Shown in pieces: positions 10,383 through 47,926 of a DNA stretch of 64,000 bases. A program made the position numbers and the translations under genes. The stretch comes from Treponema sp. Marseille-Q4130 (lineage in GTDB: Bacteria > Spirochaetota > Spirochaetia > Treponematales > Treponemataceae): NCBI RefSeq assembly GCF_014334325.1, contig NZ_JACSET010000014.1, forward strand, positions 1-64,000, written 5' to 3'. Each line of letters starts with the position of its first letter. The stretch's first letter is position 1. Under the pieces are notes generated by a model. The model was not told the origin of the DNA. It saw only the letters and a list, made by a program, of their open reading frames with translations, and ran no database searches.

Positions 10383-11141
10383 ATGAACGTTGTTGCACAC
10401 CGCGGATACAGCGGAGTTTATCCTGAAAATACGATGCTTGCATTCCGCAAAGCCGTTGAAGCGGGTTCGGACGGTATCGAACTCGACGTACAGCTTACAA
10501 AAGACGGAACGGTCGTTGTCATACACGATGAAAAAGTCGACCGCACTACCGACGGCTCGGGCGCCGTCCGCGATTATTCATTTGCGGAGCTTCGCAAACT
10601 CGACGCGGCGAAAACGTGGAACGGAAAATATCCGAAAGAAGCGATACCGTCGTTCGAAGAATACTGCGAATGGGCGGCGACGGTAAACATAACGACGAAT
10701 ATCGAACTGAAAACGGGACTCGTGTATTATGAAGACATCGAGCAAAAAACGATCGATATTATTAATAAATATAAGCTCGAAAAAAAAGTGCTGTTTTCGT
10801 CGTTCAATCACAGTTCGCTTATCACGGCAAAAAAAATCGCGCCTTCGATTCCGGCCGGAGCGCTCGTCGAAGAAGCGGGTTTGGTAAATGCGGGTTTTTA
10901 CTGCAAAAAATACGGTTTTGAATTCTACCATCCGAGTTATAAAAATCTGAACGATGAAGCGGCGGCGGAATTGAAGCGGCACGGCATCGGCATCAACGTG
11001 TGGACGGTCAACTCGATGGCCGAACTTGAAAAGATGTACGCGTGGGATATTTTCGGCGTCATCACGAATTATCCGGCGGTATGCCGCGCATATTGCAACG
11101 GAATGTTAAAACGGGACGCTGAAATAGCGCGTCCCGTTTAA
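10383..11141 (+). CDS. ugpQ: glycerophosphodiester phosphodiesterase (UgpQ-like, cytosolic)
   Basis: 252 residues, no signal peptide. The GDPD motifs are complete: AHRGYSGVYPENT near residue 5, ELDVQLTKDG near 38 and VIHDEKVDRTT near 51, which supply the metal ligands and catalytic His. It cleaves glycerophosphodiesters such as glycerophosphocholine into glycerol-3-phosphate and an alcohol after import by the transporter encoded upstream. The final codons (from 11109) lie inside an inverted copy of the multi-hairpin repeat also found at 47.6 kb, so the C-terminal tail LKRDAEIARPV appears to be made from repeat sequence. Confidence 0.92.
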   Translation: MNVVAHRGYSGVYPENTMLAFRKAVEAGSDGIELDVQLTKDGTVVVIHDEKVDRTTDGSGAVRDYSFAELRKLDAAKTWNGKYPKEAIPSFEEYCEWAATVNITTNIELKTGLVYYEDIEQKTIDIINKYKLEKKVLFSSFNHSSLITAKKIAPSIPAGALVEEAGLVNAGFYCKKYGFEFYHPSYKNLNDEAAAELKRHGIGINVWTVNSMAELEKMYAWDIFGVITNYPAVCRAYCNGMLKRDAEIARPV

Positions 11142-11254
11142 CTGCAAGTTTGCAGGGCAAACCGTTTTCTTTTGAAAACTCGCGGATATACGTGTGCGCT
11201 TTCGCGCACTAATGCGGTATTTTCGAAAATCGATATTTTCTGCAATGCCGCATT
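11109..11254 (-). repeat. multi-hairpin repeat element, inverted copy overlapping the ugpQ stop
   Basis: Four stem-loops follow each other: AAACGGGACGC...GCGTCCCGTTT (11109-11139), the GTTTTCTTTTGAAAAC region (11164-11179), GTGCGC-TTTC-GCGCAC (about 11194-11209), and a long-loop hairpin AATGCGG...CCGCATT (11211-11254). The first three match, in inverse orientation, the 143 bp unit at 47611-47896, including the linker CGCGGATATACGT. The last hairpin keeps the layout but not the sequence. The element ends the ugpQ transcript region and its first arm is translated. Confidence 0.75.
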
Positions 11255-11269
11255 AACAAGGATGAAAGA

Positions 11270-45340: not shown

Positions 45341-45400
45341 CGACCGCCGGCTGCGGCAGGCGTAAGTGTTTGAAAAACGTGCCGTCTTATTTAGGGTATC

Positions 45401-45432
45401 TCGGAAAACTCACCTTTAGCGATTTTTTCGGG
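45401..45432. repeat. imperfect hairpin repeat (copy 2)
   Basis: TCGGAAAACTCACC, TTTAGCGATTTTTTCGGG: matches 28391-28426 at nearly all positions. It lies between the ROK kinase gene and the broken rpn gene; a related, weaker stretch is near 37030. Confidence 0.5.
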
Positions 45433-45720
45433 TGTCAATAGTATTGCGTAATGAAATGCTGCGCTCATGGAAGCATAAATGTTGCAGTGCGCATCGGCTT
45501 ACAGCTTTTCGACTTCTTCTTTTGAGAGACCGGTAGCTTCCGTGATAATACTTACGGAAACACCGAGCCGCTTGAGGTTCCGTGCATCTTCGAGCGCTTT
45601 TTGATGCGCACCGGCGGAAAATCCTTGTGCTTCGCCTTCTTTCAATGCGATTTCCCGCTCTTCTTCCCGCTGTACGGCGATGTCCACGTCGTAATCATAT
45701 TCGGCAATTAACATATTCAT

Positions 45721-45864
45721 TCCTTGCAAAAAACTTTTGCAGGAAGTTGCAACTTCCGAAAAAGTTTTTTCTGTGCGCAAGAGTGCACACGTTCAATAGT
45801 CGAGTTTGCGTTGCAAACTCGAGATAACAAGCAGAGGCGCAATTTCAGCCGATGCTTGTTATCG
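45721..45864 (-). repeat. 144 bp multi-hairpin insert in rpn (element B)
   Basis: Six stem-loops in a row: CCTTGCAAAA/TTTTGCAGG (45722-45743), the perfect palindrome GGAAGTTGCAACTTCC (45742-45757), GAAAAA/TTTTTC (45758-45771), TGTGC/GCACA (45772-45789), TCGAGTTTGC-GTT-GCAAACTCGA (45800-45822) and the long-loop GATAACAAGC/GCTTGTTATC (45823-45863). Removing it joins GAG GTA to ATG AAT in frame. Length is a multiple of three, and no clear target duplication is seen. Confidence 0.8.
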
Positions 45865-46296
45865 TACCTCCTTTGACTTCCGCTGTAAGTACTCCCGCAG
45901 AATGTCGTTTCGTATGCATTCTTTGATCGCGTTCTTAAAACCGTTTTCGCTGTCGAGCTTCGTATGTTTCCGCACGGTTTCTACGAACAGCGTGTACTCT
46001 TTCAGTGGTTTACAGGCACTCAGCAATTTACTGCTTTTATTATAATTGATATTTATCACGCTGACAACGAGTTCGAGGCTCGGTTCGAGGCTCGGTTTTG
46101 CAGGCTGCACGATAAAAGCATCTGACAGTTTTAATGTCACCCGTTCGGGATACTCTTCTTCGCCGTTGTAGAACACGTAAAACTCAGGTGTCGGAATCTT
46201 TTTCAGACGCCTCAGATAGCGGTCGCGCGGGTTTTGGATGCGCTCGTAGAGGCGTACAACGTACTGTAAAAATCGCAGCGGCATATTGGCGTTGAC

Positions 46297-46456
46297 TTCA
46301 TTGAAATTAATCGGCGAGTAATTTTTCAAAATTACGAGTTGATTAATTATGCTGTTTCGTAATGTAATGAGAAACAGCAATGGATATGCGACGTTTGTCT
46401 GAAAGACAAACTCGACGTTACTCATATCCGGCACTATTTGGACGGGTATGAGTAAC
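46297..46456 (-). repeat. 160 bp multi-hairpin insert in rpn (element A)
   Basis: Four stem-loops: GTAATTTT/AAAATTAC (46318-46335), GCTGTTTC/GAAACAGC (46351-46378), GTTTGTCT/AGACAAAC (46393-46411) and the long-loop GTTACTCATA/TATGAGTAAC (46417-46456). The dinucleotide AC flanks both ends (46295-46296 and 46455-46456), like a 2 bp target duplication. Deleting the 160 bp joins ACC to GTC AAC and restores ...STVNANMPLR. Layout matches element B: long-loop hairpin at the rpn-5' side, then a CGAGTTTG hairpin. Confidence 0.8.
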
Positions 46457-46864
46457 GGTGGATTGGTGCTCCGCAAGTATGATGATTTTACCGTCGACGA
46501 GGCAGGCGACATCGTTGCAAAATGCCATGTACATGACCTGTTCGAGGCGAAGCGGTTCGAGTTTTGTAGCCGCATCAAACGTTGTGCCGTGAAGCGCATT
46601 GTAGAGAGAAAGGAACTTTTCTTTCGCATTTTTGTCTTCTCCGAAGAGATCGACAAAGACCGAGTCTTTATACCGGCGATTGTGTTTTGGCATGAAATAC
46701 CTCCGTATATATATCGCGGAAATGTTGCAATTTCGGAGTTTTTATTTTGTGCGACCGGTACCGCCCTTAGTTATAATGCAATGATAATTATTTTTATGAC
46801 AAAATCCGACACTGCGCCCATTCAGTGCTGTCGTATTCTTTTCCATTTTTTTCGTTTTTCCCTC

Positions 46865-46961: not shown

Positions 46962-47612
46962 ATGGAACAAACGACAATGCACATGCCCCTCTTGGGCGAT
47001 GATTTTCCCGAATTGAGCGTAACGACGACGCTGGGCAAAATGAATATTCCCGGCGATTTGAAAGGCAGCTGGTTTGTGCTGTTCAGCCACCCCGCCGATT
47101 TTACACCCGTCTGCACGACCGAATTTGCCGCGTTTCAAAAGCTCGTTCCCGAGTTTGAAAAGCTCGGCGTCAAATTGATCGGCCTTTCAATCGATCAGCT
47201 GCAAAGCCATCTGAAGTGGATCGAATGGATCAAAGAAAAACTCGGAATCGAAATCACCTTCCCCGTCATCGCGGCGAACGATACGGTTGCGAATAAACTC
47301 GGACTTCTGCATCCCGGAAAAGGCACGAACACCGTGCGTGCGGTCTTTATCGGCGATCCGAACGGCAAAGTGCGCCTCGTCCTCTATTATCCGCAGGAAG
47401 TCGGCCGCAATATGAAAGAAGTTTTACGCGCCGTCAAAGTACTCCAGATTTCCGATGCGAACGGCGTCGCGATGCCCGCCGATTGGCCTGAAAACGGTTT
47501 GATCGGCGACAGCGTCATCATCCCGCCGCCGGGAAGCAAAGCCGAAGCCGACAAGCGCCTTTCCGAATACGACGGTTACGACTTTTGGTTTTGCCACAAA
47601 AAACTTCATTAA
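46962..47612 (+). CDS. peroxiredoxin of the Prx6 / 1-Cys type
   Basis: 216 residues. The peroxidatic Cys is C51 in [14 protein letters not shown]. The length, [33 protein letters not shown] and the C-terminal arm ending in [12 protein letters not shown] are typical for the Prx6 branch; a further Cys lies five residues from the end. It reduces hydrogen or alkyl peroxides in the cytosol. TAGGAG stands before the ATG. A strong promoter overlaps a PerR-like operator. The stop codon region is shared with the first unit of a tandem repeat. Confidence 0.93.
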
Positions 47613-47926
47613 AATCGTACGGCGAGTAAATCTTCGGATTTAGGAGCTGTACGATCAGTGGGCGAAAGCGCATACGTATATCCGCGAGTTTTCGAAAGAA
47701 AACTCGAAGTTAAACGGGACACGCTATTTCAGTGTCCCGTTTAAACTTTCATTAAAATCGTACAGCCAGTAAATTTTCGGATTTAGGAGCTGTACGATCA
47801 GTGCGCGAAAGCGCACACGTATATCTGTGAGTTTTCGAAAGAAAACTCGAAATTAAACGGGACACGCTATTTCAGTGTCCCGTTTAAACTTTCATTAAAA
47901 TCGTACGGCGAGTAAATCTTCGGATT
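47601..47926 (+). repeat. tandem 143 bp multi-hairpin repeat behind the peroxiredoxin gene
   Basis: Units start at 47611, 47754 and 47897 (third only 30 bp). Units 1 and 2 differ at about eight positions. Each holds four stem-loops: ATCGTAC/GTACGAT with a loop that itself folds as AAATC-TTCG-GATTT; GTGCGC-GAAA-GCGCAC (intact in unit 2); CGAGTTTTC-GAAA-GAAAACTCG; and TAAACGGGACAC/GTGTCCCGTTTA. Each unit border reads AAACTTTCATTAAAATCG, almost the same as the 3' end of the peroxiredoxin gene. An inverted copy overlaps the ugpQ stop at 11109. Confidence 0.85.

Follow-up and report, generated by a model that had tools for sequence, protein, structure and literature searches.

Hairpin inserts in a split Treponema rpn gene as probable copies of TD-1, an element found beside Shine-Dalgarno sequences

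In the window, the whole stretch of 64,000 nucleotides of Treponema DNA that was analysed, the rpn gene at 45499-46693 on the minus strand is split by two hairpin blocks, insert A (160 nt) and insert B (144 nt). We consider it quite likely from the comparisons below that both inserts are copies of the Rfam element TD-1, that their presence varies between relatives, and that insert B has become a new leader of the predicted RpnS (antitoxin) frame. The two inserts in one rpn gene had been noticed in the initial annotation, and their coordinates and lengths were confirmed.

The split rpn gene and its uninterrupted relatives

The closest named relative of the rpn tail was locus L117 of Treponema socranskii subsp. 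socranskii ATCC 35536. This locus is syntenic with the window, the aligned blocks are 94-97% identical, and it has an undivided rpn that lacks both inserts. Apart from one in-frame 12-nt length difference, the window exceeds it in this alignment by stretches of exactly 160 and 144 nt. Within the genome of the window itself, four rpn paralogues (C1, C2, C11 and C13) are likewise intact and uninterrupted across both junctions. These natural copies demonstrate that rpn is continuous without the inserts, which bears out the single frame proposed from the window alone, and the empty orthologues do align across both junctions. The parts of the locus, in the direction of the gene, are as follows (SD, Shine-Dalgarno sequence).

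rpn piece N, 46457..46693, minus strand: first part of the nuclease region, as far as the invariant EHQST block (79 codons), 100% identity to the L117 rpn
Insert A, 46297..46456, minus strand: TD-1-like, divergent copy of class II, 160 nt, four stem-loops; TD-1 match 46299-46423; empty in L117 and the four paralogues
Insert A hairpin 1, 46417..46456, minus strand: long loop, from the fold
Insert A hairpin 2, 46388..46416, minus strand: CGAGTTT type, from the fold
Insert A middle hairpin, 46350..46379, minus strand: loop CTCATTACATTACG, from the fold, as in other treponemes (compare L096 and L104)
Insert A hairpin 3, 46305..46348, minus strand: from the fold of 46290-46420
rpn piece M, 45865..46296, minus strand: remainder of the RpnL-specific part, with the internal SD AAGGAGGT at its end, 95% identity to L117
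Insert B, 45721..45864, minus strand: TD-1-like copy of class I, 144 nt, with the internal SD before it and the start codon behind it; TD-1 match 45722-45829; empty in L117 and the four paralogues
Insert B hairpin 1, 45823..45863, minus strand: long loop GGCTGAAATTGCGCC, from the fold
Insert B hairpin 2, 45800..45822, minus strand: CGAGTTTGC...GCAAACTCG, from the fold
Insert B small hairpin, 45773..45790, minus strand: GTGTGCAC...GCGCAC, from the fold
Insert B hairpin 3, 45728..45770, minus strand: right-end hairpin, from the fold; right-end motif found at 30 scored loci
rpn piece C, 45499..45720, minus strand: predicted RpnS (antitoxin) frame, ATG behind insert B, 96% identity to L117

The description of the inserts as mostly stem-loops agreed with the folding, which was far beyond chance. 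For insert A, 146 of the 160 nt folded at -42.1 kcal/mol (z -6.4); insert B folded at -56.8 (z -6.5), and for either insert 0 of 200 shuffles was as good. Insert A interrupts the nuclease region directly behind EHQST, a block invariant across 12 of 12 aligned Rpn proteins, and shifts the rpn frame because its length is 160 = 3 x 53 + 1. Its site has no SD and no clear target duplication. In insert B, a stop codon near the 5' end terminates the upstream rpn frame, and the 3' end carries an SD-like AAGGA six bases ahead of the conserved ATG. Of the SDs that flank insert B, the right one (CAAGGA) is an inexact repeat of the left one (AAAGGAGGT).

The intact orthologue L117 scored 27.1 bits with Pfam PF04754 (Rpn, Transposase_31), above the cut-off of 21, and the broken rpn pieces on their own fell below this cut-off. 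The scores with PF12784 (17.5, with 27.4 required) and TIGR01784 (43.1, with 52.1 required) were too low. A PADLOC search with the rpn orthologue and a phmmer search of it against the PDB gave no match.

Translational bypassing elements and self-splicing introns are structured inserts within an otherwise continuous gene. The initial annotation had offered an RNA element that is removed or skipped as one reading, in which the inserts leave the mRNA or are passed over by ribosomes and full-length Rpn is still made. The strong hairpins and the frame, continuous without the inserts as in the orthologue, would suit such an element. However, insert B, unlike these elements, holds a stop followed by a fresh SD-ATG. 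The gene also occurs in whole copies, and the TD-1 family lies mainly outside coding sequence. In addition, no intron model of Rfam matched at 45400-46800, where up to E 5 only TD-1 and TD-2 were found. Splicing or bypassing was rejected on account of the stop and restart signals at insert B and the missing intron match, and we now regard this reading as very improbable.

TD-1 copies at Shine-Dalgarno sites

Inserts A and B match TD-1 over the full model, with E values of 1.6e-8 and 4.6e-8. Their scores (58.1 and 56.0 bits) do not reach the TD-1 gathering score of 64.5 bits, and they were filed as TD-1-like. The genome of the window holds at least 66 TD-1 matches at E <= 1e-3, six of them above the gathering score; the count is a lower bound, as 150 of 358 candidates were scored. 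Further copies of the element, for which a search of the genome had been proposed, therefore exist. Like MITEs, they are dispersed and without coding capacity, and most cover about 110-180 nt over the model. In a survey of the genus with stricter filters than those of the own-genome count, TD-1 was found in 36 of 98 sampled genomes (own included) and in 0 of 14 control genomes.

TD-2 matches the two inserts weakly on the strand opposite to that of TD-1 (45772-45867 and 46356-46432, plus strand). Since the two models match opposite strands of the same elements, this suggests that Rfam TD-1 and TD-2 describe one DNA repeat. Judged by their sequences, inserts A and B belong to one family but have diverged within it, and are not duplicates of a single sequence. 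A DNA search found no second copy of insert A in its own genome; among the loci compared, its nearest relatives lie in other Treponema genomes, and its middle hairpin resembles those of L096, L104 and L094 there. Some elements are longer and carry extra sequence inside hairpin 2 or 3, like nested elements (L037, L044, L045, L046, C13:174966 and C12:323896).

The copies fall into two classes. In class I the order is an SD-like AGGAGG, the left hairpin, the CGAGTTT hairpin, the small hairpin, the right hairpin ending GTTTTTAT, GGGAG and the start codon. Class-II copies have the 3' end TTTTAAGG or similar. Class-II copies elsewhere in the window are listed here.

TD-1/TD-2-type tandem pair of class II, 47605-47890 (47752..47858 and about 47605-47744), minus strand: just past the ORF at 46962-47612
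TD-1/TD-2-type copy of class II, 11136..11259 (within 11117-11262), plus strand: 10 nt ahead of a start codon

Insert B sits between the internal SD and the ATG, places AAGGA before that ATG and stops the upstream frame near its own 5' end. It is thus a class-I copy that entered a ribosome-binding site, in this case one located within a gene, and its intragenic position is no oddity.

In the window's genome, 27 of 31 class-I copies end at most 16 nt from a sense start codon (ORF of at least 60 codons), compared with 7 of 35 class-II copies. In 6 of the 27 class-I hits the first counted codon falls in the last six bases of the element, and the ATG then lies in the leader. The four class-I exceptions are two tandem copies and two rpn tails, one short and one with an early stop. 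The right-hand hairpin motif was scored at 30 loci drawn from 68 motif matches; 19 of the 30 loci are also in the TD-1 list. An SD-like motif was present at 30/30 of these loci, and at 25/30 there was a start codon with an ORF of 50 codons or more; for the 11 loci outside the TD-1 list, the counts were 11/11 and 9/11, respectively. At most 24-26% of the AGGAG or GGAGG sites in the window stand ahead of an ORF start, so the motif alone does not predict the placement of class I. It may be that the context of the start is recognised, or else that selection removes insertions at other places.

In other Treponema genomes, and with a loose rule for class I, a start codon lay behind 43 of 54 class-I copies and 3 of 12 class-II copies. 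The left-end control gave 12/66, which is generous because five offsets were tried per locus. This count covered 66 of 69 loci and left out L098 (uncertain place), L111 (not element-like) and L324 (cut off). Of the 11 class-I misses, three stand before another element (L330, L335 and L104), one is without a 50-codon frame (L100), and seven have class-II-like ends.

The flanks of 23 of the 31 class-I elements were searched against two T. socranskii genomes, and 30 of 40 matches were retrieved for comparison. Junctions were examined for 11 class-I elements whose counterpart seemed to be empty; in 9 of these 11, the SD core flanks the element on both sides and occurs once in the empty site. For example, the empty site of C14:13296 reads AGGAGtttttATG, and the filled site reads AGGAG-element-AGGAGtttttATG. 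GAGAGGA stands on both sides of the element at C11:106674, and TGGAGGT on both sides of that at C12:97201. C3:59631 and C17:33082 gave no clean comparison, and among the nine clean cases there are two (C15:186434 and C15:139538) in which the second relative reads differently. The overlap is of variable length (4 to 7 nt and beyond), an odd feature if a simple transposase is at work. The site C15:106606 is filled in T. socranskii subsp. paredis and empty in ATCC 35536, and C12:97201 is filled in ATCC 35536 and empty in paredis. For class II, 24 elements were queried and 11 compared; C11:359460 lies at a clear SD, and the remaining compared sites were unclear, filled in the relative, or elsewhere. 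The 66 matches and the sites filled in one T. socranskii genome and empty in another support the earlier proposal of a small mobile element.

These data also bear on the view that TD-1 is truly a cis-regulatory leader RNA, whose seeming mobility comes from being copied together with genes. Rfam types TD-1 as Cis-reg, the class-I copies are leaders beside SDs, and the hairpins are conserved, all of which would be expected of such an RNA. However, the downstream genes are unrelated, close relatives are without the element at the same gene, tandem copies occur, and two copies lie inside a coding sequence. We believe this explanation to be unlikely. The paper that first described TD-1 reportedly already remarks its closeness to SD sequences, so the SD adjacency may be known already; the empty sites and the doubled SD are new here. 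A literature search of titles and abstract openings found no published account of an SD-targeting mobile element or of TD-1 mobility.

Possible exchange among rpn copies and the predicted fate of the locus

The site of insert B is also filled in C10 and C16 of the window's own genome and in T. socranskii subsp. paredis. In paredis, the filled internal site of rpn has GAGAGGT on both sides, and the empty copy has GAGAGGT once. The rpn loci share one TD-1 subfamily, which is found at the main start (C13 and C1) and at the internal start (C5, C10, C16, C7 and one paredis locus). An element that likes this gene had been suggested; the shared subfamily agrees with this, but most class-I copies lie at the ribosome-binding sites of other genes. 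In C13:220288-220862 (L079) and C1:41079-41605 (L062), rpn is followed by an extra copy of the C-terminal tail with its own SD and ATG, and in the latter the extra tail comes after an apparent remnant of a TD-1 right end.

Repeats of this kind can break assemblies, and some TD-1 matches of ATCC 35536 lie at contig ends. The inserts might then be repeats misplaced inside rpn by the assembly. However, the sequences that fill the internal site in C10, C16 and paredis differ, and insert A is without a second genomic copy from which it could have been misplaced. An assembly artefact is the least probable of the explanations considered, and we give it hardly any weight.

The window and L117 differ by 30 coding substitutions, of which 21 are located no more than 60 nt from one or other insert site (p 1.4e-6), and the substitution tracts at these sites resemble different rpn paralogues. 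The clustering of substitutions at both sites makes it likely that the inserts arrived, or in L117 were lost, by short-tract recombination between rpn copies. Gene conversion with other rpn copies, and not fresh transposition, would then have delivered the inserts (or they were lost from ATCC 35536). The filled internal sites in C10, C16 and paredis also favor this route, but an exact donor was not found, and the window's genome yielded no other copy of insert A. We put its chance a little below even. It concerns the route only and is compatible with TD-1 as a mobile element.

As described in PMC10327210, an rpn gene can hold a second gene: translation that begins internally yields the C-terminal tail alone, RpnS, which blocks the full-length toxin. 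In E. coli RpnA, where RpnS starts internally, mutations that abolish RpnS alter Lys-Glu and Met (PMC10327210). In the rpn studied here, the Lys-Glu codons AAG GAG constitute the internal SD. An SD-like motif was present at the internal start of 56 of 61 Rpn tails among the fetched loci (Treponema and others). The rpn of the window has the internal SD AAGGAGGT and then an ATG ahead of its C-terminal tail, as an RpnS-type organisation requires. The tail, a putative antitoxin, gave a weak profile match to the RpnA structure 7th0_A (E 0.019).

RpnL is likely dead at the locus in the window, and the predicted RpnS is likely still made from its own leader as an orphan antitoxin with no toxin. A comparable state is seen in C10, where a truncated nuclease region, an element and a tail follow one another, resembling an antitoxin without toxin. 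C16 consists of an element and a tail with an early stop. At C7 (L285, C7:4419) there is an rpn-like leader with an SD, a composite TD-1 element and an RpnS-like frame of ~90 codons, with no nuclease. C7 looks as if one element had stood at the main start and another at the internal start, and the stretch between the two had been deleted.

Proposed mechanism and comparison with known systems

The class-I copies stand in sense upstream of start codons, with an SD core at both ends and one SD when the site is empty. With an SD core at both element ends, the downstream gene keeps an SD. We lean slightly towards the wider view that TD-1 homes to the SD in sense, duplicates it and becomes the 5' leader, and that the map of its copies would mark true starts, including hidden internal ones like that of the antitoxin frame in rpn. 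In this mechanism, an enzyme would insert TD-1 at SD motifs and duplicate the SD, and an insertion at a true start site would therefore do little harm. In rpn, the element would have inserted at the internal start, which serves the antitoxin in E. coli, and insertion B would have turned a single toxin-with-antitoxin gene into a pair of cistrons. The nuclease frame behind EHQST was broken separately, by insert A. The predicted outcome is an antitoxin without toxin, like C10 and C7. The rpn copies of TD-1 would likely have moved by short-tract recombination as well as by transposition.

The right-end pattern, with up to 2 mismatches allowed, occurred 68 times (control, 6), and the left-end loop pattern gave 30 matches (control, 2). 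The 11 right-end loci and 7 left-end loci inspected included no copy that carries a transposase. By eye, the element ends have only ATAAAAA-like tips in common. A search for Y1 transposases gave one partial match, in a 115-aa frame without known link to TD-1. Rpn itself was rejected as the mobilising enzyme: PMC10327210 deems a transposase function highly unlikely, and nothing here links Rpn to TD-1 movement. At L263, L275, L276 and L280, the right end of the element alone seems to be kept, still beside an SD and a start codon. Such apparent 5' truncation, the 3' end being intact, would be compatible with target-primed reverse transcription, although it is no more than a hint.

If the proposed mechanism is true, a 'regulatory RNA' of Rfam would be a selfish repeat with an unusual target, the SD. 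By targeting the SD, TD-1 could multiply in a densely packed bacterial genome and do little damage, and the positions of TD-1 would flag real start sites. The rpn case would be a toxin gene with a nested antitoxin that is decaying into an orphan antitoxin. Other high-copy 'cis-regulatory' motifs confined to one genus would then deserve a second look.

Both inserts share with the Rfam families RF03155 (TD-1) and RF03162 (TD-2) of clan CL00124 the full-model match, the hairpin series and the SD adjacency. Rfam files TD-1 under cis-regulatory RNAs and TD-2 as an sRNA gene, whereas the element here behaves like a repeat that is scattered through the genome, has empty counterparts and is flanked by an SD at either end. 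MITEs and the Rickettsia palindromic elements described in PMC10969869 resemble TD-1 in being about 150 bp long, gene-less, hairpin-rich and present in many copies, some of them intragenic. TD-1 differs in its target, the SD in sense orientation, and a matching transposase was not found. The Rickettsia elements insert in-frame within ORFs (PMC10969869), whereas the TD-1 inserts here are not in-frame. The rpn of the window shares with the Rpn/RpnS system of PMC10327210 the internal SD and ATG ahead of the C-terminal tail. Unlike in that system, an inserted element here separates off the nested frame, and the frame of the nuclease is no longer intact.
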